Source: a virus. From it: a stretch of 23,139 nucleotides of DNA. Position numbers and translations under genes: made by a program. Below the pieces are notes generated by a model, which searched no databases, was not told the origin of the DNA, and saw nothing but the letters and a program-made list of their open reading frames with translations. The stretch spans positions 1 through 23,139 of IMG/VR virus record IMGVR_UViG_3300025164_001380; one strand, written 5' to 3'. Of the stretch, positions 521 to 23,117 are shown one piece after another (the stretch's first letter is position 1; every line of letters starts with the position of its first letter).

Positions 521-2860
521 TTAACTCGGCATGTTCTGCGTTTCCACCGCCGGGACGGACATCTGGCCGTCCTGGTACTGCACATGAATGCCGTTGCTAT
601 CCGGCGTCTTGCCCACCCGGGGATAGCGGGGATCGGCGGGCGTGTTCACGTCGTTCACCCGCTGCATGGTGCCGGCCGCCGAGAAGGCCAAGGCCTTCTT
701 CAGCGTGAGATCCACACCCTGGCCCAGCGTCACGCCCATGGTGTCTCCCCCAGCGTATTGGAAGCGCAGCTTGCTCATCAGGAGATCCAGGTCCATCAGC
801 GGATCCGGGCCCACGTGGATCTCGTCCACGGAGGCCTGGTCGATGGCGTAGCGGGCGAGGTTCTGGCGGTCCAGCAGGGCCAGGGCATCGGGAAAGGCCC
901 GCTCGCGGATCAGCACCCAGCGAGAGCCCAGGAACAGGAAAGATTTGCGGGCGGGCAGATTCTCGACGTCCCCCGCCTCTTGTAGGGAGCCATCCGCGAG
1001 GAGGTTCGCAAGCCGCGAAAACTCCCCTGAGCGCTGGATGACCATGGCGAAGTGCGGGATGGTGTCAGCCACCGGATGCTGCGGGGTATCGTGGAAGAAC
1101 TCCTGATCACGGATGATGTAATGGTCTGTGTGACCTCCGGGACTCCCACCCCCTGGCGATTCGCCCGCGCCCGCGGCCCCCGTATCCGTGAAGCTGATGG
1201 AGTTCGCAGGCCCGGCCACGCGGGACCACGCGCCGCTGGGGTGCTTGCGCCGGTAGAGCCGGAAATCTCCCGCGGGTGATCCGAAGGCATTCAGGCCGGA
1301 GATGCCAACGCTCTTGGTCGCGTCGTCCACGCGGAACAGCATCCGGCGACCTGGGCTCAATGAGAGGCCAGCCTGTGCCGGGGTCCAGGTGGTTTGGTAC
1401 TCATAAACGCCGGTCTCCGGCCAGGCTCCGCCGCCGGCCACGTCCGTGAAGACCAGAGACACGTTCGTGCTGAAGGCGTCTGGGGCGACCAGCGCCTGCG
1501 GTGCCACCATGAGCACGGAGCGCCATACACCACTGAATTCGTTGAACACCACCTCATGCGTTTGCGCGATGCGCTCGCGGTGCATCAGGGCGGTCGTCGC
1601 CGTCCATTCGGTCTTCCACGGCTCCGCCAGGTACGGGTTCGCCGGCAGCGTATCCATGATCAGGCCATACCAAGGCACTCCGAGCGTGCCGACACCGGGA
1701 GTCCAATTCGTCTCCGAGACGGTCCCTATCACGAAGTTCAGCGTGGGGGTGATGCCACCCGGGCATCCCCCACCAGGGGGGTCGATCTGGTTGAATCCCC
1801 GATTCAGGCTGCCCCAGTAGACCGCCCAGGCCAGGCTGGTGGACGCCGCAATCGTCCGCAGCACCACCGTCTTGGTCGTCAAATTCACGACGTAGTAATA
1901 GGGAAATCGAAACACGGACCCAATGACGGCACTGCTGAAATTCTGCTGGTTGCGGTAATTCCCATAGTTGCTTTGCGGTACGGTGAACTCTCCGAACCAG
2001 TCGTTCACGATGGCCGTCACCGGGCCCACGCCGCCGGTGAACCCCGTGAGCGTGATATCCGTGAGCGGCAACTCACATCCCGAGAGCCCCGTGTAGAGCG
2101 CCAGCACTTCCAGGTTGCCGCTCCCATCCAGGCGCGGGTAGATCGAGAGGGGATTCGAGATACCGTACTGCACCTGCGTGGGCGAGAGGGCATTGATCCC
2201 CGTGACCACCAGCCCATCACCAGCCAGCCCCACCGAATCAATCACACAGTCTCCACCTAGATTCACGTCCCAGGTCTCATCGCGCCGGATCAGGTTCTCG
2301 AACACCTCAAGGTTCAAAGTCCGCAGGATCACCTCGTTGGTCCGCGCCGTCGTCCGGCTTACCTCCGTCATGGCCAGCTTCGGCAGCACCGGGCTCTCTC
2401 CGTAGGGGATGGTGACGGTCTCTGCACCAACCTGGCCCCCGTAGGAGAACTCCACCATTGTTACTTCGTCAATTCCGAATGTCGGGAAGAAGGTCTCGAA
2501 CTCGCCCTTGATGATGTCCGTGGGTGCCACCCACACCACGACGAAGCGTGAGGGGTTCCCGTCCACGAAGCGCACATGGGGGAAGTTCGGCCATCGGCTA
2601 GATCGCTGGGGGAACCTATAGCCCACATTCTCGCCCACGTCGTAGTCATCCAGGGTGAAACTCGGGGCGCCGAAGTCGGCGGTAAGGTCCCTGGCGAACA
2701 CGCCGCCATCGGTCCTGGACAGGATCAGATAGGTGTGGCCCTCGATGAATCCGTCCGCCGCGCGGATGAACAGCCCGATGCTGGTCATGTCCGCTGGGCC
2801 CGCTGGACCCGGAGGGAGTGGAGGCCAGGGACACCTCGCGTTGTCGGTCACCCATGGCAT
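521..2860 (-). CDS. Large putative tail protein (779 aa)
   Basis: A 779-aa protein whose ATG overlaps the stop of the repeat-protein gene upstream (TAATG), which implies translational coupling. The N-terminus is proline-rich to about residue 24; an alternative start is Met25. Most of the chain is beta-rich with many Gly, Thr, Tyr and Asp residues. Around residues 540-570 a stretch containing FRLYRRKHPSGAWSRV followed by SFTDTG looks like a fibronectin-III-like strand pair. The last 200 residues (from about IIRDQEFFHD) are more helical and may form a separate assembly domain. Length and position resemble podophage tail-tube or tail-hub proteins, but I cannot place it in the T7 gp12 family or any other with confidence. 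Confidence 0.7.
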   Translation of the reverse strand: MPWVTDNARCPWPPLPPGPAGPADMTSIGLFIRAADGFIEGHTYLILSRTDGGVFARDLTADFGAPSFTLDDYDVGENVGYRFPQRSSRWPNFPHVRFVDGNPSRFVVVWVAPTDIIKGEFETFFPTFGIDEVTMVEFSYGGQVGAETVTIPYGESPVLPKLAMTEVSRTTARTNEVILRTLNLEVFENLIRRDETWDVNLGGDCVIDSVGLAGDGLVVTGINALSPTQVQYGISNPLSIYPRLDGSGNLEVLALYTGLSGCELPLTDITLTGFTGGVGPVTAIVNDWFGEFTVPQSNYGNYRNQQNFSSAVIGSVFRFPYYYVVNLTTKTVVLRTIAASTSLAWAVYWGSLNRGFNQIDPPGGGCPGGITPTLNFVIGTVSETNWTPGVGTLGVPWYGLIMDTLPANPYLAEPWKTEWTATTALMHRERIAQTHEVVFNEFSGVWRSVLMVAPQALVAPDAFSTNVSLVFTDVAGGGAWPETGVYEYQTTWTPAQAGLSLSPGRRMLFRVDDATKSVGISGLNAFGSPAGDFRLYRRKHPSGAWSRVAGPANSISFTDTGAAGAGESPGGGSPGGHTDHYIIRDQEFFHDTPQHPVADTIPHFAMVIQRSGEFSRLANLLADGSLQEAGDVENLPARKSFLFLGSRWVLIRERAFPDALALLDRQNLARYAIDQASVDEIHVGPDPLMDLDLLMSKLRFQYAGGDTMGVTLGQGVDLTLKKALAFSAAGTMQRVNDVNTPADPRYPRVGKTPDSNGIHVQYQDGQMSVPAVETQNMPS

Positions 2861-4875
2861 TAGGGCGAGACCTCATCGTGTTTCCCGATCATGATCGGGG
2901 GCGGCACCCACCAGGGATGTGAACCGAAGGGATGGTTGGGCGGCGGCGCAGCCGACGGCAGCAGATAGGCGGTCACCGCCGTCGCTCGGCCGGGCGCCCG
3001 ATTCGGCAAGAGGTTGCCGATCTCGATGGGCCGCGGGAGCACCGGGAGGTACAGATCGAGGACCCCCGGTTGGAAGAGGGTGTAGGCGGATCCCCCCGCC
3101 CGCGGACCCGGAGCCCGCTCGGGAACGAGGCTCCCGATCTCGAGGACGAGCGGGACGCCTGCCAGTTCGCGCCCGAAGAAGATGTAGGCGGAGCGTGCCG
3201 TCTGCGGCCCCGGGGCGCGATCCGGGAAGAGGCGCAGCACGGTGACGGGGACATCGGCGTACTCCCCCACCTGTGGGTAGGCCCACAACTGGAAAGCCGT
3301 GGAGGCGATGGAGCGTCCTGGTGCCCGTTCTGCGAACAGGGACCTGACAGTCGTGGCCACCTGCCCGCCGTAGAGTTCGACCGGGAACGGCACCAGTTGG
3401 TAGGCCGTCCTGGCGGTCGCAGGCCCAGGGGCGCGGTCGGGAAGCAGGTGTCCGAAGCCCGTGGGCGTCGGGGCCAGCGGGTAGAGATCCGGGCCTCCCG
3501 CGAGGAACCATCCAGGCGCGGCGGTTTTGGCTCCCGGCGCTCGGTCTGGAAGGAGCGACCGGACCGTTGACGGGACCTGCCCACCGTACAACTCGACCTG
3601 GAAGGCCCGGATGGTGTAGGCGTCTGGAGAGGTGGACAACCCGGGGGCCCGGTCGGGCAGGAGGCTGAGGATTTCGAGAGGCTTCCCCCCGTACAGTTCG
3701 ATGGGCCAGGGCTGTACCCCATAGGCCGTCGCCGCCGTCCGACTGGCACCAGGCGCCCGCTCGGGGAACAGGCGTCCGATTTCGATGGGGACGCTACCCA
3801 GGGTGTAGAGATCGGGCGTTCCAGAAAGGAACCATCCTGGGGAGGCAGTCTTGGCACCAGGAGCCAGCTCGGGCAGGAGGAACCGAGCCGCCGGAGGGAA
3901 CGGAATCCCCAGGTCCACCACGCCCGTCCGCATGAACGAGTAGACAGCCTCGGATGCCCGTGGGGTGTACGCCCGGTCGGGCAGGAAAGACCCGATCTCG
4001 ATGGGGCGCTCGGGGAACCCCAGGGCGCCATACTGCGACCACGAGGAGAAGAGTCGGGCGGACAGGACACGATGCGGGAAGGTCGCAAAGCCCGCGGGCA
4101 GAGCCTCCACCACACCCTCTGGTGGGACGGGTAGGAATGGGATGCCATAGGCAGTTTGCGGAGCCCACCAGCGATGAGGGCTTCGAAGGGTGCGGTGGAC
4201 ACCTCCCCCATAGTACGGTGACACGGCGGCGGTGTAGAGGTCGGGCGTGCCGGGCACCAGGAGCTTGAAGGCGGAAGAGCCGACCGCTGGTCCGGGGGCG
4301 CGATCAGGTAGCAGTCGGGACGGCGGTGCCCCCCCATAGAGTTCCACTGGCCAAGGACGAAGACCGTAAGCCGTGGCGGCAGTGCGCGATACGCCGGGCG
4401 CGCGGTCGGGAAGGAGGGACAGGACCTCTTCCGGCTTCCCACCGTACAGTTCCACCGGCCAGGGGCGGATGCCGTAGGCCGTAGCCGCAGTACGCTCCGG
4501 TCCCGGGGCTCGGTCGGGAACCAGTGAGCCAATCTCAAGGGGCCGTGTGGATGGGATGATCGGCTGGACCTTGAGTTCATACGCAGCCAGGCTGGCCTGC
4601 CGCCGCTCCCAGCGGGCGTACATGCGGAGGACGCCGCCACCGCGGAACGGAGACTCCACGGCTGGGGCAGCGTAGAGATCGACGGACCCAGGCCACGCGA
4701 TGTCATAGGCGGTGCGAGCAATGTCCCGGCCGGGAGCGCGCTCAGGACAGATGCACCGGACAGGCAGCGGGACCTGGCCACCGTACAACTCGGGCTGCCG
4801 ATTGAGCCACCACCAGGCCCACGGCGCCGCCGCAGGTCCACGTCGTGACTGCTGCCAGAAGAGATAGTCCGCCAC
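2860..4875 (-). CDS. Protein of 36-residue RAPG repeats (671 aa)
   Basis: A 671-aa protein starting at GTG (TGATGTG context: the upstream methyltransferase stop is 1 nt away); an ATG two bases earlier is in another frame. Nearly the whole chain is a degenerate repeat. Each unit carries P-[DE]-R-A-P-G, then about 8 residues to an S/T-A-Y/F or P-G-W aromatic site, then a V/I/D-E/D-L-Y-G-G-like strand and a hydrophobic E-I-G-S-L or V-R-S-L linker. RAPG-type cores begin at residues 46, 122, 158, 192, 301, 337, 373, 409, 445, 481, 517, 553, 587 and 626; spacing is exactly 36 from 301 to 553. Two or three degenerate units fill 46-122 and 192-301. There is no signal peptide and no enzyme motif. A repetitive virion fibre, solenoid or tape-like protein is the best guess; no family is recognised. 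Confidence 0.85.
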   Translation of the reverse strand: MADYLFWQQSRRGPAAAPWAWWWLNRQPELYGGQVPLPVRCICPERAPGRDIARTAYDIAWPGSVDLYAAPAVESPFRGGGVLRMYARWERRQASLAAYELKVQPIIPSTRPLEIGSLVPDRAPGPERTAATAYGIRPWPVELYGGKPEEVLSLLPDRAPGVSRTAATAYGLRPWPVELYGGAPPSRLLPDRAPGPAVGSSAFKLLVPGTPDLYTAAVSPYYGGGVHRTLRSPHRWWAPQTAYGIPFLPVPPEGVVEALPAGFATFPHRVLSARLFSSWSQYGALGFPERPIEIGSFLPDRAYTPRASEAVYSFMRTGVVDLGIPFPPAARFLLPELAPGAKTASPGWFLSGTPDLYTLGSVPIEIGRLFPERAPGASRTAATAYGVQPWPIELYGGKPLEILSLLPDRAPGLSTSPDAYTIRAFQVELYGGQVPSTVRSLLPDRAPGAKTAAPGWFLAGGPDLYPLAPTPTGFGHLLPDRAPGPATARTAYQLVPFPVELYGGQVATTVRSLFAERAPGRSIASTAFQLWAYPQVGEYADVPVTVLRLFPDRAPGPQTARSAYIFFGRELAGVPLVLEIGSLVPERAPGPRAGGSAYTLFQPGVLDLYLPVLPRPIEIGNLLPNRAPGRATAVTAYLLPSAAPPPNHPFGSHPWWVPPPIMIGKHDEVSP
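2989..4740 (-). repeat. Array of about 17 imperfect 36-codon (108-nt) repeats
   Basis: This interval spans the first to last RAPG-type core inside the 671-aa gene. From 3975 down to 3208 eight consecutive cores are exactly 108 nt apart. Elsewhere spacings are 34, 36, 38-39 or multiples of about 36 residues, as expected after small indels. Neighbouring units differ at many synonymous positions while keeping P-D/E-R-A-P-G, the aromatic site and L-Y-G-G. That pattern fits an old array held by selection on the protein and not a recent DNA expansion. Confidence 0.85.
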
Positions 4876-4876
4876 A

Positions 4877-5452
4877 TCAGCGTCTCGTCATCACCCACAC
4901 GCCGCAGGGGCACGGGATCATCACCTTGTCCCACGCAGCGCCCAGCTTCCCCCAGTGGTACACGTCCTGGGGATCGTGAGCGTTGTGCGCTACCACGACG
5001 GCACGCGGCGTCAGAAACGGGACGAAGTGCTCCAGTTCCGATAGGCGATCATCCCCGCCGTCGATGAACAGGAGGTCGATAGGATGGTCCCATGGCGTGG
5101 AGCGGGCATCGTCATGCCGCACGGTCACGAAGGAATCCAGTTCTTCCACCTCCAGGAACTTCGCCGCTTGCTCGCAGCACTCCTGCTGGATATCGAACGT
5201 CCAGACATGCCCGAGGCCGTTCTCTCGGCAGCCGAGTGCCATCATCCCCGCCGAGTGGCCGAGATACGTCCCCGTCTCCACGATGACCTTGGGCTTGAGC
5301 AGCACCACCAGCGCCTTCAGGAACTCCCACGTCTCCACCTCGGAAGCCCAGGCGTCCAGTTCCGTCCAGCGCCACGGCTCCGGGCAGAGGTCCCACGGCT
5401 GGACGGGGGCCTGCTTGAGCTGCGCCCAGGTGGTGAAGGGGGGGCGCCTCAT
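4877..5452 (-). CDS. Class I SAM-dependent methyltransferase (191 aa)
   Basis: The start chosen is the ATG at 5452, which overlaps the upstream TGA as ATGA and has GGAGGG about 11 nt ahead; an in-frame ATG at 5503 would lie inside the Tat-protein gene. Residues 56-67 (VIVETGTYLGHS) match motif I of the Rossmann SAM-binding fold, FDI at 86-88 fits the acidic end of strand 2, and DLLFIDGG at 126-133 matches the motif of the Methyltransf_24 / cephalosporin-hydroxylase-like group. The substrate is unknown; members of this group often modify sugars or small molecules. It is coupled to the Tat-signal gene and, beyond it, the glycosyltransferase gene, so a role in glycan modification is plausible but inferred. 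The C-terminus contains a CPC pair. Confidence 0.85.
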   Translation of the reverse strand: MRRPPFTTWAQLKQAPVQPWDLCPEPWRWTELDAWASEVETWEFLKALVVLLKPKVIVETGTYLGHSAGMMALGCRENGLGHVWTFDIQQECCEQAAKFLEVEELDSFVTVRHDDARSTPWDHPIDLLFIDGGDDRLSELEHFVPFLTPRAVVVAHNAHDPQDVYHWGKLGAAWDKVMIPCPCGVWVMTRR

Positions 5453-5838
5453 CGAAGTTTCGCGCCCTCCCTGCGTCCGCCGGAAGACCCCAGGAAGCTC
5501 CAAAGGCCTCCCCTGTTATCCATCACGACTCCCCCTGCGAATGTTTCGAGAAGTTGGTGTCCGTCGTGTATGTAGCAACCCTCCCCAGGCGCAGCCACCC
5601 ACCTCATATGCGCTTGCTGTCCGATGGCGAAGTCCAGTAGCTTCTGGCCCCCGGCTCGCTCAACGGAGAAACGCAATCCCTCGTGTGGATCAAGCGTCAC
5701 GATCCTGGCCGGTGCTGGTGTCCAGAGGACTTCTCCGCCTGACGCCTGGAGCGCCGCGCCAGCCCCCAGGCCGGCGATAGCCCCAGCGATCCCTTTGAGT
5801 ATACCGCGCCGAGAAACCAACCCGTCAAAGTCCTTCAT
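5449..5838 (-). CDS. Small protein with Tat-type signal peptide
   Basis: A 129-aa protein starting at the ATG at 5838, which overlaps the glycosyltransferase stop (ATGA); it overlaps the methyltransferase start in the same way at its end. The N-terminus is a textbook twin-arginine signal: S9-R10-R11-G-I-L-K, then a hydrophobic Gly/Ala segment (about residues 17-31) and an A-L-Q-A cleavage-like site near residue 32. The mature part of about 97 residues has no recognised domain; it contains two His residues and ends in a basic tail. Tat export implies that it folds, perhaps around a cofactor, before crossing the inner membrane. A Tat-exported protein in a phage late operon is unusual. It could instead be a membrane-anchored protein using the segment as an uncleaved helix. 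Confidence 0.8.
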   Translation of the reverse strand: MKDFDGLVSRRGILKGIAGAIAGLGAGAALQASGGEVLWTPAPARIVTLDPHEGLRFSVERAGGQKLLDFAIGQQAHMRWVAAPGEGCYIHDGHQLLETFAGGVVMDNRGGLWSFLGSSGGRREGAKLR

Positions 5839-6551
5839 CGCGTCCACTTCTCCTGCTTGCTGAGGTCGATGTGGATGTTCGTGCGGGCGAAGTCGAACCG
5901 CACATCGATGCCATCCGGCGGCGCGGGCCACACACTACAGGGAGTGATGTGGCCGATCTTGTTGTCGCAGTCCACCCAGATTTTGTACCCGGCCTCGATC
6001 ACCTTCTTGCTGAAGTTCGTATCCTCCTGCATGTGGCCCCGGTCCAGTTGGCCGGGGTCGAACCAGTGCTCCTTCAGCGCCTCCAGCACCGGGCGGCGCA
6101 CAAGCAGGCCCGCCCCCCCGATCACCTGGGTCTCCTGCAAGCCGTGCAGGGCGATCTTGCTCCAGGGGCGCCACTTGCTCCCGGCGTTCCAGACGGTCTC
6201 GTCCCCGTTGTGGTTGGGCTCCAACGAGATGGCGTGGAAGGGCGGGTAACGCATCGAGCACAGGGGCGCCACCACATCCAGCTTGCGGTCCAGGAGCCGC
6301 ATGAGCAGGTCCCCGTCCCACACGTGGTCATCGTCGCTAAAGAACACCCACTGCATGTTCGGGTCGTTGAGGGCCTGACGAATGATGTTGTTCCGGTTGA
6401 CGCAGATATCATAGCCACGCTCCCAGGCCGCCACGGAGTACATAGGGCTCATCATGTTCTGGAGCGAGGCCACGAACTCCGTGTAGCGCGTGAGGTCGCC
6501 ACTCGTGATGCCGATCACTCCGGGCGGGTGGTCACTTTGGACGAAGAGCAT
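5835..6551 (-). CDS. GT-A-type glycosyltransferase (238 aa)
   Basis: The ATG at 6551 is preferred because GGAGGTGG lies 4-6 nt upstream; a longer reading starts at 6584. The protein shows GT-A nucleotide-sugar transferase features: WVFFSDDDHVW (residues 68-78) contains the D-x-D metal and nucleotide-sugar site, GGAGLLVRR (145-153) is the acceptor-side loop, QED (175-177) is a candidate catalytic acid region, and H201 in K-I-G-H-I fits the late His often seen in these folds. There is no membrane segment, so it would act in the cytoplasm. Its stop overlaps the Tat-protein start. Possible targets are virion proteins, phage DNA or host envelope precursors; the sequence does not decide between them. 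Confidence 0.85.
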   Translation of the reverse strand: MLFVQSDHPPGVIGITSGDLTRYTEFVASLQNMMSPMYSVAAWERGYDICVNRNNIIRQALNDPNMQWVFFSDDDHVWDGDLLMRLLDRKLDVVAPLCSMRYPPFHAISLEPNHNGDETVWNAGSKWRPWSKIALHGLQETQVIGGAGLLVRRPVLEALKEHWFDPGQLDRGHMQEDTNFSKKVIEAGYKIWVDCDNKIGHITPCSVWPAPPDGIDVRFDFARTNIHIDLSKQEKWTR

Positions 6552-6669
6552 CAGCCACCTCCATAACGACGAGGACACGCCCACACTTCCAGCACTGAAC
6601 CGTGCCGGGGCGCGGTCCAGGCCGGTACGAGCAGAGACAGGTACGCGGACTAGTCTTCAGACCAGGCAA
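6532..6669 (-). CDS. Candidate mini zinc-ribbon protein (45 aa, TTG start)
   Basis: In the gap between the 156-aa gene and the glycosyltransferase, a reading frame from a TTG at 6669 to the TGA at 6532-6534 encodes CLC (residues 12-14) and, 14 residues later, CWKC. This four-cysteine arrangement is typical of a small zinc knuckle. It overlaps both neighbours, has no clear ribosome binding site, and its start is uncertain. It is listed because two other Cys-rich small genes lie close by. It may be spurious. Confidence 0.3.
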   Translation of the reverse strand: MPGLKTSPRTCLCSYRPGPRPGTVQCWKCGRVLVVMEVADALRPK

Positions 6670-7120
6670 GTCCGAACGTCGCGCTGCTGGCCGTGACCCC
6701 CTGGTCGTTGTTGCACCAGATGCCGTCCGTGGGTGCGGCCCCCGCCAGCGCCACCCACTCCTCGCCCGGAGCCGCCAGCCACCGCCCGATGCCCCCGTGC
6801 GCGTTCCAGGCGGTGGCATACAGCGCAATCGGCGCGGCGTAGGAGCCCCCGGTCTGCGGCGCGGAGTTGAGCACCCGCAACCTGGCGGTCGGCGGGTTGC
6901 TGCCGCCGCTCAGGATGGTGGCGCTCAGGTTGGTGGTGGTCCCGGTGATCGCCGTCTGCGAGCGGGTCCACCGCGTGAGCATGGCCGTGGTGGTGGTCAG
7001 GAACCCCCCCCACGACACTTCGAGCACGCGCCCGAAGTACCCCGCCGTCTGCGCGAACAGGATGGTGTTCGTCGCGGCGGGCGTGTACAGCCCCGTGTTG
7101 CTGTAGAAGATGTTCGCCAT
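6650..7120 (-). CDS. Putative virion protein (156 aa)
   Basis: A 156-aa protein starting MANIFYSN with a purine-rich GGAGAGGAG ribosome binding site. Composition is high in Thr, Ala, Gly, Ser and Trp, with alternating hydrophobic residues consistent with an all-beta fold, and there is no export signal or catalytic motif. The C-terminal part has a D-x-I-W-C-N-N motif that is also found as D-T-W-C-N-N in the 235-aa protein at 10751-11458. This hints at a shared structural element among the surface proteins. Its location among beta-rich genes suggests a tail or capsid surface protein. No named family is recognised. Confidence 0.7.
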   Translation of the reverse strand: MANIFYSNTGLYTPAATNTILFAQTAGYFGRVLEVSWGGFLTTTTAMLTRWTRSQTAITGTTTNLSATILSGGSNPPTARLRVLNSAPQTGGSYAAPIALYATAWNAHGGIGRWLAAPGEEWVALAGAAPTDGIWCNNDQGVTASSATFGLAWSED

Positions 7121-7126
7121 GACCTG

Positions 7127-7381
7127 TTACTCCTCTCCTGGAAAGATGTGAAAGCGTCCCGTGTCCGTCATCCGCATGTAGAACGTGCCCAGGTCTTGCT
7201 TCGCGTGCCGCGAGCACAGCCACACCATGCGCCGCCGCACTGGCTGCTCGTCCAGCGCCCGCAGGCAGACCCAACACCGATCAGCGCCGGTGTCGGCGGG
7301 CACCTCTGGCGCCCCTTCCTCCCGAGGGGCAGGGTGCTGGCGCAGGTAGATGGCCTTGTCGGCGGCCTGGTCGATGTTCAT
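7127..7381 (-). CDS. Small Cys-containing protein (84 aa)
   Basis: The start is the ATG at 7381, overlapping the stop of the neighbouring zinc-ribbon gene (ATGA); the longer upstream frame is an out-of-frame shadow of that gene. The N-terminal half is charged and proline-rich. The C-terminal half has a C-W-V-C pair followed about 20 residues later by L-C-S-R-H, which gives a C-x2-C...C-x2-H set suited to one zinc ion. No enzyme motif is seen. Coupling to another cysteine-rich gene suggests the two work together, perhaps in nucleic-acid or protein binding. The function is unknown. Confidence 0.7.
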   Translation of the reverse strand: MNIDQAADKAIYLRQHPAPREEGAPEVPADTGADRCWVCLRALDEQPVRRRMVWLCSRHAKQDLGTFYMRMTDTGRFHIFPGEE

Positions 7382-7647
7382 GTCCCGATCTCCTTCTGCA
7401 TCCGATCCCACTGCTGGTCGATCTTGCGCTTGAAGTTCTCGCATCCGTGGACCGCCATGCGGGCCGCACAGTGAACACAGAGGGGACCGAAACACGCATG
7501 GCAGAATCCGCCCTCTTCGCGCCACGTTTTGGCGTACACCACGGCCTGGCAGTGGCAACAGGCACGGGTTTCTCGCTCCACCACGCGCCCATACTTTCGC
7601 TGGACGCTGGGGGGGGAGGCCCTATGGTCGATCACCTCGTAGCCCAC
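7378..7647 (-). CDS. Small zinc-ribbon protein (89 aa, GTG start)
   Basis: The frame is open from an ATG at 7662, but the in-frame GTG at 7647 is preferred: GGAGG lies 8 nt upstream, and it overlaps the stop of the beta-helix gene as TAGTG, the linkage style seen across the window. The protein holds C-C-H-C, then C-H-A-C about 16 residues on, then C-V-H-C and a later Cys, enough for two zinc sites of ribbon or treble-clef type. The C-terminal 20 residues are charged and helical. Such mini zinc proteins are common in phage late regions, with roles mostly unassigned. The next gene starts inside its stop codon. Confidence 0.75.
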   Translation of the reverse strand: MGYEVIDHRASPPSVQRKYGRVVERETRACCHCQAVVYAKTWREEGGFCHACFGPLCVHCAARMAVHGCENFKRKIDQQWDRMQKEIGT

Positions 7648-9488
7648 TAGCCGTACCTCCATGAGGAGCGGTCGATGGTCGTGGTGTGACCCACCAGAGA
7701 ACCCTCGGCTTGTTGCGCGACGAGTTCAAACGCACCCATATCCCAACCATCTCCTCGCGGTCTATCGCCGTTGTCCTGGTCCACCTGGACACTGATGCCG
7801 TAGTTCGCCAGGAACGTGGCATAGGCAGCAGCGAGCGTTCCAGCGTCCTTCGCTGGGGACCCCGTAAGGAGGCGATAGTTGTCCTGGGGGGCGGCGACAA
7901 ACAACGGGTCATTTGTGGTCGCATGAGCGCACTGGCCCTGACCACTTTGGAATCCCGCCAGTGTGGTATACGTTGCTTGCGCCCAACGGGTGAACCACGA
8001 TTGCACCCCAGGATGCAGCAGCGCGTAATCCATCGACATGTACGCGCCAGGAGCTTGACCCATGTTTGTGAACCTCGCTTGAGGTGCCCCGCCCTCTGGC
8101 GCCTTTAGGAAGGCGATGATGTCGTTCAACGAGTGCATGCCGTCCGGATTGAATACGCACTCGATCCCGTTATGGACATTGGCAAGGGTGTTGTTGACCG
8201 TGAAAAGGTTGCCACCTGGCGCAGCGTGCCGTGTGATGCCCCAACCATTCGGGCTGCCCCAGTGTGGATAATCCTCCAACCAGTCCGTGGGGTTCTGGTA
8301 GGTATCGTGAATGAGATTGCCAATCATGTAGCTGTTCATCGTCGCGTCGGAGGCGCCGGAATCGCTCGCGCGCGTCCCGTTGCCGCAGTCGAAGAAATGA
8401 TTGAAGATTAACCACATGCGGTCCTTCGCGTACTGGTATGCGATGGCCTCGCCCGCACTGCCGCCGTGTCCCCGACAGAAGTTGAAGGTGTTCTGGGAGC
8501 ATACGATGTCCACGCATTGCTTTAAGCCAATCGGGGCCTGACGATTTTGTCCTCCCGTGCAGCGGCCGACATAGATGTGATTGATATACCCCATCTCCGA
8601 AGCATCCTGGATGGGTCGTCCGGTGGTCTGGATCAGGTTTCCGCTGATCAATTGCCCATCACATTCGAGCACCCACACATTCTTGATTTCCGTCGGTGGC
8701 GTCCGGGAGTACAGGCTCAGGCCGATTCCATGGTAGTCCTGGTCGATGAAGTCCCAGGTCTCGAAGTTCATGCCGAGGTTATTGAAGACACACCGCAGAA
8801 ACAGAATGTCGTTGATGACGGCGCCCTGAGCAGGCGTAATGCCTGTGGCTGAGTTTGCCGAGACGAAGGGCAGGTCCCGGAACGTGCAATCTCGAACGCA
8901 AAGGTGGTGCGTTCCCGTCCCCACCACACCGATCCCCGCACTCGATGCGCCCTCGAACACCAAGTTCTCGAAGATGGTATAGACCAGCCCGATTGTTCCG
9001 CCTCCGTTGGAGGTGTTCCACGCACCGCTGATGGACGGAAGGTTCCCTGCAACACCACGAACAACGGCGGGATTCCCAGCCGTCCCACCACCCGTAAAGA
9101 TCACGTCTGCCGTGTACGTTCCAGGGTCGATCTGGATCACGTCCCCAGGACTCAACGTCTTCGTCCCTGAGAGCGTCGTCACGGTTTCGGTCGCCGCACC
9201 GGCCGCCTCGGTAATGCCGAAGGACGGCATGGGGATGCCGATGGGCGGAGCCCACACCCCACCCCGTGGCGGGAAGGCCAGCATACGCCGCGTGCGCTCT
9301 GACAGGAAACGGTAGGTGTCCGCAACGACGGGTGCGAGACAGCCCTTCTTGGCGTAGTACCACGTCTCCCGCAGCACATCGGCCACATCGCGTGGGGCGC
9401 GTTCGAGGATGTGACCGTGGGTGCGTCCCGCCGAGGAGACAGGCAGGTGACGCCACCAGGGGACTCCGACTAGGCGATACGCCCTCAT
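7647..9488 (-). CDS. Right-handed beta-helix protein (613 aa), possible tailspike or depolymerase
   Basis: The start is the ATG at 9488, overlapping the upstream stop (ATGA); a longer frame to 9626 is not supported. An N-terminal region of about 100 residues is helical and basic. From about residue 110 the chain is a parallel beta-helix: SPGDVIQIDPGTYT is a typical first rung, followed by rungs rich in V/I-x-N/D-C/N-x-F (for example NLVFEG, VRDCTF, FLRCVF, IVCSQNTF, FNHFFDC). The last 70 residues (NDPLF, then GSPAKDAGT, then GDGWDMGAFEL) resemble choice-of-anchor Q domains of secreted bacterial proteins. Phage beta-helix proteins often bind or cleave surface polysaccharide; catalytic residues cannot be assigned here. 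Its neighbours are beta-rich structural genes, which supports a virion location. Confidence 0.8.
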   Translation of the reverse strand: MRAYRLVGVPWWRHLPVSSAGRTHGHILERAPRDVADVLRETWYYAKKGCLAPVVADTYRFLSERTRRMLAFPPRGGVWAPPIGIPMPSFGITEAAGAATETVTTLSGTKTLSPGDVIQIDPGTYTADVIFTGGGTAGNPAVVRGVAGNLPSISGAWNTSNGGGTIGLVYTIFENLVFEGASSAGIGVVGTGTHHLCVRDCTFRDLPFVSANSATGITPAQGAVINDILFLRCVFNNLGMNFETWDFIDQDYHGIGLSLYSRTPPTEIKNVWVLECDGQLISGNLIQTTGRPIQDASEMGYINHIYVGRCTGGQNRQAPIGLKQCVDIVCSQNTFNFCRGHGGSAGEAIAYQYAKDRMWLIFNHFFDCGNGTRASDSGASDATMNSYMIGNLIHDTYQNPTDWLEDYPHWGSPNGWGITRHAAPGGNLFTVNNTLANVHNGIECVFNPDGMHSLNDIIAFLKAPEGGAPQARFTNMGQAPGAYMSMDYALLHPGVQSWFTRWAQATYTTLAGFQSGQGQCAHATTNDPLFVAAPQDNYRLLTGSPAKDAGTLAAAYATFLANYGISVQVDQDNGDRPRGDGWDMGAFELVAQQAEGSLVGHTTTIDRSSWRYG

Positions 9489-10591
9489 AGATACGTTGCC
9501 AGCGCTTGGCCTACGGGTTGCGCCGCTCCACCGGCCGTCCAGTCCCCCAAGTACAGCCCCATCACCGGCCGCCGGGTGGGCACGTCCGTCCATGCGCCCG
9601 CATCGGTGCGGGTGGACAGGTAGCACTGCGTACCATAGGGCAGACAGGTCAGGTCGCCAGCCGTCTCGAACTCCAGTGTGTCCAAGGCATCGTCCTGCCC
9701 TGTCGCGCCGCCGCTGTTGAGGAACAGGCTCAGTCGATACTCGCTCCCAAAGTTCAGCGTGGACAGTGTAACCTCGTCAAAGTAAAAGGAGCATAGGCGT
9801 TCGGTGTTTTGCGACGTGGTGAGTTCGCTGTGGTCGATCGTCACGGTTTGCAGGGCCGTGGTCCCATCGTAGAGCGTGAGCGTCGATGTCAGTGCGGCCG
9901 CGCCGACCCGCCACGACAAACGACCGCCGGCCACCGTAAACGTCGATCCGTACCCTGCGTCGAAGTTGAACCTCATCGCATACTCGTCGGGAGTATCGGC
10001 GTCATCGAACAGGGTGGTCGTGTAGGCCTTCAGCGGGAACCCATAGGTTTTGCTGGCGCTCCGCAGGCCGAAGACGGCTTTCTCGGACTGGTGGGCCCGT
10101 GATCCGGCGTTGTTCTGGATCGCGTAGGGCCGCACGTGAACAGGTCCAAGCTGCGTGATGTGCGTCGTGTACGAACTATTATTGGTCCCGTCAATCGTTC
10201 CGGAGTCATAGGCGATCACGATGGCGACGAGTTGCCCCCGCGTGAGCGCGATGCTGTTATCTAACGTGACGGCGCGGATAGTGCCGTCCCATGTGGCGTC
10301 TGCGGGTGGGGTGAACGTCACGGATGCGGGACTGCCGCCGCCGAGAATGGTGCCGTTGGGGGCCCCTGTTGTGTTGTTCACCCCCTGCAAACTGGCCTTG
10401 AACGTCGGTGGGGTCCCCGTGCGTAGGCCGTATCGGAAGAGGATGGTCGTGATCGTCGCGGCCTCGGGCATCTGGAACACCCACTCCGCGGCGTCCGTGG
10501 CCGCGTCCAGCACGAAATTCGTCATGGTCGGCGTCACACCGTCAAGGGTGATCCCCGTATCACCAAACAGGCCGCGTGCGAAGTCGGTCAT
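9485..10591 (-). CDS. Putative virion surface protein with jelly-roll-like modules (368 aa)
   Basis: A 368-aa protein with an ATG at 10591 and a GGGGAAGTGAG ribosome binding site. It is almost entirely beta-prone: an N-terminal stretch of about 150 residues (ATITTILFRYGLRTG, then VTFTPPADATW) reads like a lectin or CBM-type sandwich. A second module at about 170-330 contains YGFPLKAYTT and a strand-rich block with TLTLYDGTT. No signal peptide or catalytic motif is visible. Its stop overlaps the start of the beta-helix gene, so the two products may form one appendage or receptor-binding complex. A carbohydrate-binding role is inferred from fold-like patterning only. Confidence 0.7.
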   Translation of the reverse strand: MTDFARGLFGDTGITLDGVTPTMTNFVLDAATDAAEWVFQMPEAATITTILFRYGLRTGTPPTFKASLQGVNNTTGAPNGTILGGGSPASVTFTPPADATWDGTIRAVTLDNSIALTRGQLVAIVIAYDSGTIDGTNNSSYTTHITQLGPVHVRPYAIQNNAGSRAHQSEKAVFGLRSASKTYGFPLKAYTTTLFDDADTPDEYAMRFNFDAGYGSTFTVAGGRLSWRVGAAALTSTLTLYDGTTALQTVTIDHSELTTSQNTERLCSFYFDEVTLSTLNFGSEYRLSLFLNSGGATGQDDALDTLEFETAGDLTCLPYGTQCYLSTRTDAGAWTDVPTRRPVMGLYLGDWTAGGAAQPVGQALATYL

Positions 10592-10592
10592 C

Positions 10593-10754
10593 TCACTTCC
10601 CCTGCGTCACCGGCAGCAGCCACTCCGCCAGGAACCGCCAGAAGTACGAACTCGCCGCCAGCGCCGCCAGCACTGGCGCCACCACCCGCGCCAGCCACCA
10701 GTGGACACGATCTTGGCGGCGGCGGCCGGTGTGGCGTGGGGCGTGGGGGCTCAT
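10593..10754 (-). CDS. Small single-pass membrane protein (53 aa)
   Basis: A 53-aa gene whose ATG at 10754 overlaps the upstream TGA (ATGA) and whose stop is 1 nt from the next start. The N-terminus is strongly basic (R and H in the first 18 residues). Residues 19-47 form a Trp/Ala/Leu-rich hydrophobic stretch (WWLARVVAPVLAALAASSYFW then FLAEWLLP) that suits one transmembrane helix with a cytoplasmic N-terminus. Size and topology would fit a small holin-like or envelope protein. No endolysin is present in the window to support a lysis role, so the call is limited to membrane protein. Confidence 0.65.
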   Translation of the reverse strand: MSPHAPRHTGRRRQDRVHWWLARVVAPVLAALAASSYFWRFLAEWLLPVTQGK

Positions 10755-11458
10755 GGGACACTCAGCATCGCCCGACCGGCCCGTGTCTCCTCGGGGTTCA
10801 TGGCGGGGTAGATGGCGATCATCTGGCTCGTCCAGGCCAGCGATTGGTCGGTGTTGAAAGTATTCGGGTCCTCGGTTGTGACGTTCGCCTGCCGGGAGGC
10901 GGAGGCGATCTGCGCGTTCGTGGTGGGGAGTCCGCTCGTGCCCGTGGTCTTCTGGACGAGGGCCCCATAGGCCGGGCTGCTCGGGGCGTTGTTGCACCAG
11001 GTATCGTCGTCGTCTTCCTCCCCCCCCTGGACGAAGAGGGCAAGGAAGAGAAAGTCTTGCGGCCCGCCGCCGGGGGTGATCGAGGGCGGATCGGGGTTCG
11101 CATTGGTGGCCGTGGCCGCCGTGCCAATGGCGGGGGCGGTGGCGTTCTCGGCCCCGGCGATGCTGTAACTCAGGTGGCACGACTTGGTGTTGGAACTCGT
11201 GCCCACGGTGATCGTCGTGCTCTCCGCCCCGCTGTCGATGTGCCACGCGGCATCCATGCAGCGGTTGGTCTGCTCGTTCTTGAAGCCGGTGATGGGGGCG
11301 TAGCCTGCGGGCCAAGTGATCGTCTGGCCCGTGATGACGTAGCCGAACAGGACGACGACGAACCGCCCCGGCACGCCCACCGAACGGGAGACCGCGTGCG
11401 ACGAGGTGGCGGTCGTCTGGCTGGACTCCCGCTGGCCCAAGATGGTGGGAAAGGCCAT
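10751..11458 (-). CDS. Putative virion protein (235 aa)
   Basis: A 235-aa protein beginning MAFPTILGQ. It is beta-rich with frequent Thr, Ser, Ala and Gly. A central N-P-D-P-P-x-I-T-P-G-G-G motif is followed by an aliphatic strand (FLFLALFVQGG) and an acidic run of four Asp before W-C-N-N. I recall similar arrangements in many uncharacterised proteins of environmental phages, but no function is known to me. There is no export signal. The gene starts 3 nt after the stop of an exported-protein gene and ends inside the start of the 53-aa membrane protein. It probably belongs to the structural surface set. Confidence 0.65.
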   Translation of the reverse strand: MAFPTILGQRESSQTTATSSHAVSRSVGVPGRFVVVLFGYVITGQTITWPAGYAPITGFKNEQTNRCMDAAWHIDSGAESTTITVGTSSNTKSCHLSYSIAGAENATAPAIGTAATATNANPDPPSITPGGGPQDFLFLALFVQGGEEDDDDTWCNNAPSSPAYGALVQKTTGTSGLPTTNAQIASASRQANVTTEDPNTFNTDQSLAWTSQMIAIYPAMNPEETRAGRAMLSVP

Positions 11459-11461
11459 GCC

Positions 11462-11839
11462 TCACCGTGTCGGCGCGAAGCAGGTGACGATCAGGGTGCC
11501 CGTGGCGGCGTTGCCGACCGCGCGCACGCGCGAGGGCTGGGCGACGACCATGACGTCGCCGATGGCGAAATTGTTGTCGGTCGAGGCCGGCGTGCCCGCC
11601 GTCACCCCCAGTTTCAGGAACATGGCCCCCGTGAGGACCTGGATCATGCCCGGGTACTCGGGTTCGCCGGTCGTGCCCCCGGGCCGGCAGACCGTGGCCG
11701 GCAGGTTGACCGCCGCGTAGGGCGTCACGGTGACGGACCCGGTGGCGAACGGGTAGCCGAGGGTCCAGTCCTGGGGCCAGGTGAACGCCAGGAGCCAGCC
11801 GGACAGGATGGCCAGGGCCATCAGGAGCGGACGTTTCAT
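11462..11839 (-). CDS. Small Sec-exported protein (125 aa)
   Basis: A 125-aa protein with a Sec-type signal: M-K-R-P start, hydrophobic core LLMALAILSGWLLAF, and possible cleavage or membrane retention near residue 20. The mature part is beta-rich, contains one Cys in TVCRPGG and one near the C-terminus (VTCFAPTR) that could form a disulfide in the periplasm, and includes the segment F-A-I-G-D-V-M-V-V. Its start overlaps the O-antigen ligase-like stop (ATGA). The other exported protein in the cassette (12834-13310) has a comparable size, cysteines and I-T-A-G-D-V-I-I-V, so the two may be distantly related. Function unknown; periplasm or outer surface is the expected location. Confidence 0.75.
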   Translation of the reverse strand: MKRPLLMALAILSGWLLAFTWPQDWTLGYPFATGSVTVTPYAAVNLPATVCRPGGTTGEPEYPGMIQVLTGAMFLKLGVTAGTPASTDNNFAIGDVMVVAQPSRVRAVGNAATGTLIVTCFAPTR

Positions 11840-12852
11840 GGGGCCCTCCGGGTGGCGAACGCCAGCGCCGGCAGCGCCAGCACGGCCACGGCGGGAAGCT
11901 GGAAGGGGAACATGCCCAGGGACTCGATCAGCACGGCCGCCAGCAGGGCGGCGGACTCGGGCGCCTGGAAGGCCCGGCGGTGGGACCAGAGCCAGGCTCC
12001 CACCAGGGCCAGCGCGACCAGACCCCCCTCATACCCAAGCTGCAACAGGTCATTGTGCGCTGCGTCAAAGCGTTGGTGCTGCCCAACGCGAGGCTGGGCC
12101 ATGCCCCACGACCCGATGCCCTTGCCGAAGACCAGACCACCCCGGGCCCACTCGGTGACCGCCCAGCGCCAGATGAGGAGGCGCTCGAAGACGGGTTGGA
12201 GGCCCCCGCCGCGGTGCCACCAGGCGAGGGCCACGAAGGCGCCTCCCGACAGGATCCACCGCCAGCCCCAAGGGAACCGCACGGCGGCGGCCGCTGTGGC
12301 CGCCAGGGCCGCCAAGAAGGACTTGGTGGCCAGGATGCCGATGGCGAAGGCCGGCAGGAGCCAGACGGGCGACCAGACGGAGGCGATGGCCAGGTAGGCC
12401 CCCGCATAGTTCGAGTTGCCCAGCGTGCCGCCAGACCAGGCGCCCCAGGTGAACCCCGGCAGGCCAGCGGCGTGGGCGATCACCCAGGCCGCCTGCACCA
12501 GGCCCACGGCCAGCGCCACGCAGCGCAGGCGCAGGCGCCAAGGGTTCCCCAGCGCGCCGGCACCGGCGTAAAGGCCCAGGCCGAGGATGGCGAACACGAC
12601 GGTATTGAACCCATCGGGAAAGGGCGTGACCAGCATCCGGAGGATCAGGTAGGCCCCCAGGAGCCCAGCCCAGAGGTCGCCCGACGAGGCGCAGACGGCC
12701 AAGAGCATCCCCATCAGCAGGACGTAGGACACGGGGACGGCCTGGACGACGAGATGGCCGGCCGGGGTGGCCGCCAGGCCGTACCAGAGGGGCACGATGG
12801 CCATCAGGGCTGCCAGGAGTGCGCCGCGGATGGCTAAGCCGTGCCCATGCAC
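11836..12852 (-). CDS. O-antigen ligase/polymerase-like membrane protein (Wzy_C type)
   Basis: A 338-aa protein with many hydrophobic helices spaced over its length (about 8-10 transmembrane segments). Diagnostic features of the WaaL/Wzy_C superfamily are present: G-T-L-G-N-S-N-Y-A at 142-150, an Arg-rich loop with E-R-L-L-I-W-R-W at 223-230, and the periplasmic H-N-D-L-L-Q-L-G-Y-E-G-G at 266-277, followed by a final hydrophobic block. Family members join or extend undecaprenol-linked glycan in the periplasm. It is somewhat shorter than typical chromosomal ligases, which have about 10-12 helices and 400 or more residues. The start is a GTG at 12852 overlapping the preceding gene; Met17 (12804) is an alternative. 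In phages such genes could alter receptor glycans or block superinfection; this is inference. Confidence 0.85.
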   Translation of the reverse strand: MHGHGLAIRGALLAALMAIVPLWYGLAATPAGHLVVQAVPVSYVLLMGMLLAVCASSGDLWAGLLGAYLILRMLVTPFPDGFNTVVFAILGLGLYAGAGALGNPWRLRLRCVALAVGLVQAAWVIAHAAGLPGFTWGAWSGGTLGNSNYAGAYLAIASVWSPVWLLPAFAIGILATKSFLAALAATAAAAVRFPWGWRWILSGGAFVALAWWHRGGGLQPVFERLLIWRWAVTEWARGGLVFGKGIGSWGMAQPRVGQHQRFDAAHNDLLQLGYEGGLVALALVGAWLWSHRRAFQAPESAALLAAVLIESLGMFPFQLPAVAVLALPALAFATRRAP

Positions 12853-13310
12853 TGGTAGGCGATCCGATCGCTGGTGGCGACCCCGGTGGCCACGATGATA
12901 TTCATGGTGGTCGTCCCGGTATCCACCTGTTGCACCACGCTGCCGGCGGTGCCGGTTTGCTTCTGGGCGAGACAGGATGGCGCCGCGGTCCAGGCGGTGT
13001 TGAATGTCAAGCTCAATGTCGTCGCCACGGTGCCCCCCAGGGTGATGACCCCCGCGGAATCATTGCCCCGGATGGTGTGCGTGGTGCCGCACCCGGCGTA
13101 GGTCGCCGCGCAGGTGGGCGGCGTGGCGGCCAGCAGGCGGATGCGGCTGTTGTTCGTCAGACGCAGTCCCGCCGCATCCACGATGATCACGTCCCCCGCG
13201 GTGATCCCGCCCAGGGTCGGAATGGGGTAGAGCCAGGTGCCATCGGTGGCCCACAGCGTGCCCGCCACCAGCAGGAGGGACACCAAGGCGATCAGCAGCG
13301 TCTTCTTCAT
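12834..13310 (-). CDS. Small Sec-exported beta-rich protein (158 aa)
   Basis: A 158-aa protein with a clear Sec signal peptide: M-K-K, hydrophobic LLIALVSLLLVAGTL, and an L-W-A cleavage-like site at about residue 21. The mature chain is Thr/Ala/Gly-rich and beta-prone, with four cysteines (two in a TCAATYAGC cluster, one in PSCLAQ and one near the end) that could form disulfides after export. GGAGG lies 6 nt before the ATG. It is the first gene after an 11-bp GC hairpin and its 3' end overlaps the O-antigen ligase-like gene. An envelope role beside that protein is plausible; no family is recognised. Confidence 0.75.
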   Translation of the reverse strand: MKKTLLIALVSLLLVAGTLWATDGTWLYPIPTLGGITAGDVIIVDAAGLRLTNNSRIRLLAATPPTCAATYAGCGTTHTIRGNDSAGVITLGGTVATTLSLTFNTAWTAAPSCLAQKQTGTAGSVVQQVDTGTTTMNIIVATGVATSDRIAYQCMGTA

Positions 13311-13908: not shown

Positions 13909-14817
13909 TTACAGGTTCTCCTGCAGGTACTGGACCTCCACCACGCGCTCGCCATCGCGCCGCACGGCGCCGCCCATGAGCTCGCCGTAGACCTGCCAGG
14001 AGTACGACAGGTCCGGGCGCTCGGAGATGCGGATGGTCTTGTCCTCGCCGATGCCCAGGCCCACGGCGCCGCGTTCCATGGCGACCCCCGAGACCACGCC
14101 GGCGGTCACGGACATGAGGGCCGAATCCACCATCGTGAAGTCGAACCCCAGGTAGGTGTTGACGTCGCCTTTGACCAGGGCCCGCACGGTGTTGTAATCC
14201 GCGCTGGTGACCTCGGTGGTGGCCAGCAGGTTCTCCTGCCCGAAGGAATCCCACACGAACACCCGGTCGCTGCCCACCATCAGCGCGTCCAGGATGTTCT
14301 TGGCCTGGCGCAGCTTGGCGATGGTCAGCCCCACGGCGCCGGAGGCGATCCGGTGGGAGACAGCCTTCCGGTCCGTCACGGGCCAGGTCTCGGTGCCCGA
14401 ATGCGTGGCGTCGCCGCCCGGGCCGATGGGCCCAGTGATCGCCGTGCCCAAGGCGGCCTGGAGCACGAACCGATCCCACTGCCGGCCGATGGCGGCCGCC
14501 AGGGCCTTCACGTAATCGCTGGTGGGATCCGTGATCAGGGTGGGCTTGATGCTGCGGTCCAGGTAGATGTTGGCCTGATAGGGCGCCAGGGTGGCCCAGC
14601 GCCGCGTGTGCTGGGGGTCCATGTTCGGGGTCGGGGCGTTCTGGCCCGGCTTGGGGGCCATCTCGACCATGCCGATCCGGTCGAACGACACCGACTCCCC
14701 GCGGACGTTGTCCTCGGTCCGCGCCCAGCCGCGCAGCCGGCTCTCCGTCTGCTGCGCTCGCATGAGCACCAGCTCGGTGTACGCCTTGATCTGTACGGCA
14801 GTGATGCTGTCAGCCAT
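13909..14817 (-). CDS. Major capsid protein (302 aa)
   Basis: The ATG at 14817 is chosen because GGAGGGG lies about 8 nt upstream; the frame is open to 14850. The protein begins MADSITAVQIKAYTELV and resembles the phage capsid proteins found next to connector and scaffold genes in podophages (HK97-like fold expected). An extended helical N-arm is followed by a Thr/Pro-rich loop (KPGQNAPTPNMDPQH), a spine-helix candidate with DYVKALAAAIGRQWDRFVLQAAL, and a C-terminal beta region ending VEVQYLQENL. The gene order scaffold, capsid, decoration candidate supports the call. Its long hairpin-rich leader suggests tuned expression. The exact family cannot be confirmed without a search. Confidence 0.85.
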   Translation of the reverse strand: MADSITAVQIKAYTELVLMRAQQTESRLRGWARTEDNVRGESVSFDRIGMVEMAPKPGQNAPTPNMDPQHTRRWATLAPYQANIYLDRSIKPTLITDPTSDYVKALAAAIGRQWDRFVLQAALGTAITGPIGPGGDATHSGTETWPVTDRKAVSHRIASGAVGLTIAKLRQAKNILDALMVGSDRVFVWDSFGQENLLATTEVTSADYNTVRALVKGDVNTYLGFDFTMVDSALMSVTAGVVSGVAMERGAVGLGIGEDKTIRISERPDLSYSWQVYGELMGGAVRRDGERVVEVQYLQENL

Positions 14818-14861
14818 GTCGCGGTCCCCTCCGTAAGATGCGGAAACCACTCATCTCACGG

Positions 14862-21962: not shown

Positions 21963-23117
21963 TCAGAACTCGAACAGGCCCAACTGCCCCTCGGCCACTT
22001 CGTCCACCGGATCCAGCTCGGGGTGCTGGATGCGCCGCCGCGCCATCTCCTCGGGCTTCAGTTCGATGCCGATGAAGTCGCGTCCGAGATGCCTGGCCAC
22101 CACGCCCACCGTCCCCGAGCCACAGAACGGATCAAGAACTCGGCATGGCTGGCGCTCGGGATCGTAGAGTTGGGCACAGCGACAGGTGGGGCGCCAGCCA
22201 ATGGTGTTACGTTGATAGGTGGTCTGGAGTTTTCGAAACCCAGAATCGCTTGTCCGACTCCTCCCACTTTCCGCGCTCCGCTGCATGTCCATGCCCAGCG
22301 TTCCACCCGCGGCCTCCACGATCCGCTCCCACGATGCCCCGCAATGCGCGCAACAGCCCTTGGCCGAGGTGCCGGCCAAGATACAGGGCAGCACGAGCCT
22401 GCGGGGGAAGGTGGCGAAATGGGCCTCTGGGAAGGGCTCGGTGGGGATGGTCCAGACCGTGCGGAGGTTGCGGCCGGCTGGGTGAATGAAAGAAGGACAC
22501 TTCCACGCGGCCTTCCCTTCGACGAGATTTCCTGAAGTTGCCGCAGCCACCAATCGTTTCTCTTTCCATCCATCCCATCCGGTCACCTCCCGCACCGCAT
22601 CCGCGTCGTAGTAGTACCTCTCGCTCTTCGTCAGCAGGAACACGTACTCATGCGCCTTCGTCGGCCGATCCGTCACGCTCTCAGGCATGGGATTCGGCTT
22701 GGCCCAAATGATGTCCGAGCGCAGCCACCAGCCATCGGCTTGGAGGGCAAAGGCGAGGCGCCAGGGCATACCGATGAGGTCTTTGGGCTTGAGGCCTAGA
22801 GGAACACTCATAGGCATGTCGTTGCCAACATCCACGTTTTTGTTATCTCGGACTTGGTAGGTCCGCTTTGCTGCGTACCCATCCCCCATGTTCACCCAAG
22901 ACGTCCCATCCCCCCGCAACACGCGGCGCACCTCCCGGAACACCTCCACCATCTTCGCCACGTACTCCTCGGGCGTGGGTTCGAGGCCGAGCTGGCCGGC
23001 CACCCCGTACTCCCTCAAGCCCCAATAGGGCGGGCTGGTCACGACGCAGTGGACGTACTCATTGGGCAGGGTGCGAAGGATGGTCAGGGCATCGCCTTCG
23101 TGGATAGTCCAAGTCAT
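21963..23117 (-). CDS. DNA methyltransferase, beta class (384 aa)
   Basis: A site-specific DNA methyltransferase acting on an exocyclic amino group (N4-cytosine or N6-adenine). T-S-P-P-Y-W-G-L-R-E-Y-G at 27-38 is catalytic motif IV, and D-P-F-C-G-S-G at 329-335 is the SAM-binding motif I; motif IV before motif I is the beta-class order. Residues between about 250 and 325 contain C-C-A-H-C and C-R-C, a zinc-knuckle-like insertion, probably within the target-recognition part. Length is normal for phage enzymes. No restriction endonuclease is nearby, so protection of phage DNA from host restriction is the likely role. The ATG at 23117 has a G-rich upstream run. Confidence 0.9.
   Translation of the reverse strand: MTWTIHEGDALTILRTLPNEYVHCVVTSPPYWGLREYGVAGQLGLEPTPEEYVAKMVEVFREVRRVLRGDGTSWVNMGDGYAAKRTYQVRDNKNVDVGNDMPMSVPLGLKPKDLIGMPWRLAFALQADGWWLRSDIIWAKPNPMPESVTDRPTKAHEYVFLLTKSERYYYDADAVREVTGWDGWKEKRLVAAATSGNLVEGKAAWKCPSFIHPAGRNLRTVWTIPTEPFPEAHFATFPRRLVLPCILAGTSAKGCCAHCGASWERIVEAAGGTLGMDMQRSAESGRSRTSDSGFRKLQTTYQRNTIGWRPTCRCAQLYDPERQPCRVLDPFCGSGTVGVVARHLGRDFIGIELKPEEMARRRIQHPELDPVDEVAEGQLGLFEF

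Follow-up and report, generated by a model that had tools for sequence, protein, structure and literature searches.

A glycosyltransferase and methyltransferase gene pair among the structural genes of an uncultured virus, a candidate cassette for virion decoration

Three overlapping genes, for a glycosyltransferase (GT), a small protein with a Tat-like signal and a methyltransferase (MT), lie on the minus strand of the 23,139-base stretch analysed here (the window), which comes from an uncultured-virus record and encodes a terminase, a podovirus-type connector, a scaffold-like protein and a capsid protein on that same strand. This raises the question as to whether the three genes serve one pathway, as proposed in a preliminary description of the locus, and what such a pathway would modify. 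The genes are where that description had placed them, as open frames running from 6551 to 5835, 5838 to 5449 and 5452 to 4877, with an ATGA overlap at each junction and a repeat-protein gene directly following, the GTG start of which lies one base past the MT stop. The features considered below are:

5835-6551, minus strand: GT, predicted GT-A glycosyltransferase, 238 aa, with an ATG start and GGAGGT upstream (translation, profiles, AF2 model, PDB matches)
5449-5838, minus strand: Tat-like ORF, 129 aa, with SRRGILK, a hydrophobic stretch and then about 97 aa (translation)
4877-5452, minus strand: MT, predicted SAM-dependent methyltransferase, 191 aa, stand-alone Methyltransf_24 (translation, PF13578, viral-contig relatives)
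5835-5838, minus strand: ATGA overlap of GT and Tat-like ORF (sequence)
5449-5452, minus strand: ATGA overlap of Tat-like ORF and MT (sequence)
2860-4875, minus strand: repeat-protein gene, 671 aa, degenerate PDRAPG-type core matched 13 times (sequence)
6650-7120, minus strand: gene for a 156 aa protein upstream of GT, candidate acceptor (homologue upstream of GT-GT-MT in contig L154)
7378-7662, minus strand: Cys-pair (zinc-ribbon-like) protein, 94 aa (L154 has a similar protein in the equivalent position)

The tight coupling of the three genes had been taken as a sign of a common pathway. Within a hand-made list of 29 genes for the window, an exact four-base overlap occurs in 6 of the 28 neighbouring pairs, and the spacing is between -20 and +6 in 20 of them. 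Close packing is therefore general in this genome, and the overlaps alone say little about a pathway shared by GT, the Tat-like ORF and MT.

The identity of GT is clearer from its predicted structure than from family profiles. Against Glycos_transf_2 (PF00535) it scores 19.7 bits (E 8.6e-4), below the curated cut-off of 23.3 bits, so that it is not filed as a member, and phrog_1574, a family without assigned function, matches residues 63-203 (E 8.8e-7). An AF2 model built on nine phage sequences (pLDDT 82.5, pTM 0.81) predicts with good confidence a GT-A Rossmann-type fold, and its top matches in a PDB fold search are GT-A enzymes, including the GT-like domain of LH3 (Z 19.3), STIV A197 (Z 17.8, rmsd 2.5 over 169 residues), mimivirus R699 (Z 17.6) and COLGALT1 (Z 16.2). 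These four share the GT-A fold with GT at only 10-16% identity, and the fold alone gives neither donor nor acceptor. In BFVD the model is matched best by a phage protein that bears the name Methyltransferase FkbM and contains the matched GT region. In all 10 aligned sequences R53, D73, D75, D177, F180, D194 and H201 are invariant, D73 and D75 forming the D-x-D metal/nucleotide motif noted in the preliminary description. The motifs of GT map as follows:

6335-6327, minus strand: D-D-D, codons 73-75
6026-6021, minus strand: E-D, codons 176-177
5954-5949, minus strand: G-H, codons 200-201

The fold and the invariant D73, D75, D177 and H201 make it likely that GT is an active GT-A enzyme. Its codon usage fits the phage (GC3 0.90, own-frame z 11.7, 0 of 300 shuffles scoring as high). 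An ORF just upstream at 6532-6828 was set aside as non-coding (z -1.4, with 279 of 300 shuffles scoring as high).

For MT, the proposed Methyltransf_24 assignment is borne out by PF13578 (E 2.2e-15, 57.9 bits, above the curated cut-off of 26.3). The protein shares its stand-alone form and a VVETGTYLG-type motif with its phage relatives, and its codon usage likewise fits the phage (GC3 0.85, own-frame z 9.5, 0 of 300 shuffles as high). In an alignment with four of these relatives the motif is placed as:

5281-5249, minus strand: VETGTYLGHSA in MT, codons 58-68

O-methyltransferases also match MT in database and profile searches, and weak matches to rhamnosyl O-methyltransferase models are a lead only for sugar methylation. 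Among PHROG profiles, MT matches one for a DNA methyltransferase (E 5.5e-4) and GT has a weak match to an HMC glucosyltransferase (E 0.33), which could suggest that GT glucosylates modified DNA bases and that MT is a nucleic-acid methylase. Both matches are weak, however, and MT is matched better by O-methyltransferases; moreover, the two genes are neighbours of late structural genes, and no enzyme that hydroxymethylates bases was seen in the 23 kb window. We find this explanation hard to credit.

To what extent do GT and MT travel together in other phages? Scans of viral contigs with either protein as a single query returned no relatives, and alignment-based scans were needed. Two scans gave 41 MT loci, of which 38 were searched with the GT profile and Glycos_transf_2 after the copies L148-L150 had been left out; dropping the near-duplicates L167, L175 and L184 left 35 de-duplicated contigs. 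A GT lies within 1 kb of MT in 12 of these and within 3 kb in 16, the remaining 19 having no GT found inside 3 kb. With MT placed at random on these contigs, the mean counts are 3.2 (1 kb) and 7.5 (3 kb), and none of 2000 draws reaches the observed values. Some of the 12 close pairs involve other GT types, and a few of the contigs are large and rich in such GTs, so that most weight falls on L154, L155, L162 and L165, clear cases with this type of GT in which GT and MT are adjacent and in the same order. When GT is taken as the starting point, the association is looser. Of 50 contigs carrying distant relatives of GT (50 of the 80 contigs listed), none contained PF13578, and the MT profile matched in 0 of 84 distant GT loci, among the matches listed. 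The loci in question, among the matches listed, are mostly cyanophage-type and match only the C-terminal third of GT, and both counts thus describe distant relatives. The cyanophage family (T4-like GC 102; S-SSM7 and Sf-FS3) is of the same type as GT, at 20-27% identity, and is encoded close to baseplate genes; unlike the window, the cyanophage loci examined have no MT of this kind. Of the two closest relatives of GT, one (L154) has an MT and the other (L186) has none in the stretch examined.

These data bear on the simplest alternative, in which the three genes are unrelated accessory genes of a compact late operon, and GT and MT act on different substrates. The close packing throughout the window is in line with it, as are the distant GT relatives without an MT and the lack of any relative of the Tat-like ORF (see below). 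On the other hand, GT and MT are adjacent in the same order in L154, L155, L162 and L165, and 12 of 35 MT contigs have a GT within 1 kb against 3.2 at random; we regard unrelated genes as an unlikely explanation, albeit one to be taken seriously. The pair is not a trait of the whole phage lineage, a possibility that was discarded on the terminase-related contigs. None of 38 such contigs matched Glycos_transf_2, the GT profile or PF13578 (38 of 53, the 15 left out all being under 8.1 kb), and no profile match was found in the examined stretches of any of the 53 terminase-related loci. GT and MT are therefore accessory to the lineage, and occur as a pair within structural modules across many phages that are not related.

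The gene order around the pair is informative. L154 encodes, in order, a Cys-pair protein, a homologue of 6650-7120, a 229 aa ORF, two GTs that overlap by 4 bases, an MT, a 387 aa ORF and a tail-spike-like gene, followed by what look by eye like lysis genes. Its first GT, second GT and MT are 49%, 42% and 41% identical to their counterparts in the window. The order Cys-pair protein, 6650-like protein, GT and MT is thus common to both. There is no Tat-like ORF and no repeat protein in L154; the second GT occupies the place of the Tat-like ORF, and the gene downstream of MT differs from the repeat-protein gene of the window. Tandem GTs amid structural-looking genes are also present in L186 (37% identity, second-closest GT relative). 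In four further contigs (L155, L162, L165 and L176) a major head protein gene (PHROG) comes first, then a small protein or two, a GT, and either one MT or two; the GT ahead of MT in L176 was identified by eye, and that contig has a Glycos_transf_2 gene behind MT. In addition, the six best viral-contig relatives of GT from the first scan (L059-L064) adjoin head or packaging genes, confirmed with PHROG for the four tested and read by eye for L061 and L063. Hence, the proposal of one pathway for the trio holds in part. It is supported for GT and MT by their excess proximity, by the GT-GT-MT arrangement of L154 and by the phages with capsid, GT and MT genes in a row, and it is not supported for the Tat-like ORF.

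Several other genes were seen at such loci. In L059 (5989-7313) the GT is followed by a sulfotransferase-like gene (Sulfotransfer_2, E 6e-9), and in L062 (5692-8707) by two more GT-like genes (by eye), in both cases just behind the capsid gene. In L156 (3958-6507), three successive genes encode a capsid protein, an MT and a UDP-glucose/GDP-mannose dehydrogenase-like protein, so that a nucleotide-sugar enzyme accompanies the capsid gene. In Synechococcus phage Sf-FS3 (L056, 4371-6198), the same type of GT, the fold of which resembles that of collagen glycosyltransferases, has a prolyl 4-hydroxylase-like gene a short distance upstream. Finally, the DNA methyltransferase of the window (21963-23117, minus strand) has a 49% identical relative in L147 (4745-5902), where a relative of MT is encoded as well.

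Taken with the gene order, the enzyme families suggest that GT and MT form a two-enzyme cassette for virion decoration, in which a sugar is placed on a particle protein and then O-methylated, with a small surface, head or tail protein as the acceptor and the Tat-like ORF as an accessory gene. We lean towards this reading with slightly more belief than doubt. The cytoplasmic GT-A enzyme, expressed late, would take the sugar from a nucleotide-sugar donor and attach it to a protein of the assembling particle, or to a sugar already bound to such a protein, and MT would subsequently O-methylate that sugar; the Tat-like protein would not be needed for either step. A lone GT requires a donor sugar made by the host, and this counts against the proposal, as do the distance of the pair from the capsid gene and the usual lack of an MT beside distant GT relatives.

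Such an arrangement has precedents. In Corndog, according to the published account (PMC4351075), the O-methyltransferase gp35 and the transferases gp36-gp38 are encoded between portal and protease, and capsid modification was proposed. A later note (PMC11600133), citing Freeman 2023, states that enzymes of this kind modify capsid and tail tube, and a Rhodococcus phage survey (PMC13313380) suggests likewise for phages that have a GT together with a methyltransferase. By gene order, GT and O-methyltransferase genes lie within the structural module in the window, and also in L154, L155, L162, L165 and L176, as in a Corndog-type virion glycosylation cassette. As described, Corndog (of the cluster O mycobacteriophages) resembles the window in having an O-methyltransferase and glycosyltransferases (gp36-gp37) in the virion structural operon, a likeness of published gene content and location. 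It differs in its four genes between portal and protease, its long tails and its prolate heads, whereas the window has one GT and one MT far downstream (~7 kb) of the capsid gene at 13909-14850, a podovirus-type connector and the Tat-like ORF in between. Thermobifida phage P1312 also has an O-methyltransferase and a glycosyl/glycerophosphate transferase together, shortly after the tail genes, although its match to MT is at chance level (E 9). A literature search of partly available texts returned no description of a GT, Tat and MT trio. If virion decoration is right, modification of virions with a sugar plus a methyl group, which is on record for some actinobacteriophages, would occur in many unrelated phages of the environment as well, with the enzymes encoded just behind the capsid gene. 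The surface chemistry of their particles could then be predicted from gene order even for uncultured phages, and small pairs of enzyme and acceptor would be gained for laboratory testing.

Which protein would be modified? The preliminary description named the repeat protein as a possible target, its gene directly following the trio. The codon score of that gene (0.065) is below that of most window genes. The protein matches no Pfam or NCBIfam family, and no relative was detected in the loci searched; with a different gene after MT in L154, its role as a pathway member or target is not supported, and we consider it a neighbour. What L154 shares is the upstream gene, 6650-7120, and not the repeat protein, making the upstream gene the conserved neighbour of the cassette. 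The two homologues are 35% identical (E 2.8e-5, tblastn and alignment), and 6650-7120 contains 22% Ser+Thr. Two other proteins, 9485-10591 and 10751-11458, are equally rich in these residues, and composition alone thus does not single out 6650-7120. On the basis of its kept neighbourhood and its composition, 6650-7120 is nevertheless a candidate acceptor, and a small surface protein of this kind or another head or tail protein would be a likelier substrate than the repeat protein. The Cys-pair protein at 7378-7662 is 31% identical over 55 aa to its L154 counterpart (blastp, E 3e-6 for that single comparison).

The Tat-like ORF stands apart from its neighbours. Its score against TIGR01409 is marginal (16.5 bits, E 0.008, for a cut-off of 16.7 bits), and searches of phage records (E up to 10), viral contigs and genomes gave no relative. 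Its codon signal is weak (GC3 0.65; own-frame z 1.9, equalled or exceeded in 8 of 300 shuffles), unlike that of the 21 other window genes tested, all of which have z values of 4.3 or more, and a single-sequence model reaches a pLDDT of 44. We regard it as a gene that is either weakly supported or foreign in composition. The start and stop overlaps on both sides suggest that a real gene is likelier than a chance frame, and the preferred reading is a recent or foreign insertion that, if expressed, would give a small exported or membrane-anchored protein. The trio as a conserved three-gene unit was rejected on the missing relatives and the second GT in L154; what recurs is GT with MT, while the Tat-like gene moves independently. 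The claim that the exported protein belongs to the pathway has thus found no backing, and the Tat-like ORF is most likely an independent accessory gene sitting in the operon.

The full model of the preliminary description, in which the substrate of GT and MT is either the Tat-exported protein or the repeat protein, draws on the direct adjacency and overlap of the genes, and the Tat pathway exports folded proteins, so that modification prior to export would be possible. The L154 arrangement, the atypical codon signal of the Tat-like ORF with its Ser+Thr content of only 7%, and the repeat protein without relatives all argue against it, and we judge it very unlikely. Its most specific form, in which the folded Tat cargo would be glycosylated and methylated in the cytoplasm and then exported, to become a surface glycoprotein (e.g. 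for the exclusion of competitors) or to attach to particles at lysis, is the least probable reading considered here; if true, it would mean a phage-made glycoprotein exported by Tat.

A rather different alternative is that the genes serve to remodel a surface polysaccharide of the host, such as the O-antigen, for instance so that other phages are excluded, with the Tat-like protein and the product of 11836-12852 (minus strand) acting outside the cytoplasm. The latter is a 338 aa multi-membrane protein which, by eye, we take to resemble an O-antigen polymerase or ligase (GTLGNSNYAG; R..IWRWAV; AHNDLLQLGYEGG), a pattern that would speak for such remodelling together with the Sec-like signals of two further proteins in the same module. 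Searches with 11836-12852 gave no Pfam match (E up to 1) and no PDB or plasmid match, so that an O-antigen ligase identity could not be shown. In other phages the cassette adjoins capsid genes, and by eye no membrane glycan gene lies beside it in L155, L162, L165 or L176. Host-surface remodelling is therefore improbable in our estimation, and virion decoration remains the preferred reading.

Irrespective of its function, a multi-membrane protein such as 11836-12852 is unusual inside a phage structural module. The two small structural-module proteins with Sec-like signal peptides, as scored with a home-made test, are encoded at 12834-13310 and 11462-11839 (both minus strand). Similar signals were seen in terminase-related phages (L004, 2617-4185; L050, 754-1428; L020, 981-1391), some of them on fibre- or spike-like proteins, and by eye on a protein of L154 (7707-9353). 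From these sequences, predicted secretion signals appear to recur on late phage proteins. A 53 aa ORF with one hydrophobic stretch at 10593-10754 (minus strand), overlapping the preceding gene by 4 bases, is possibly holin-like by eye.
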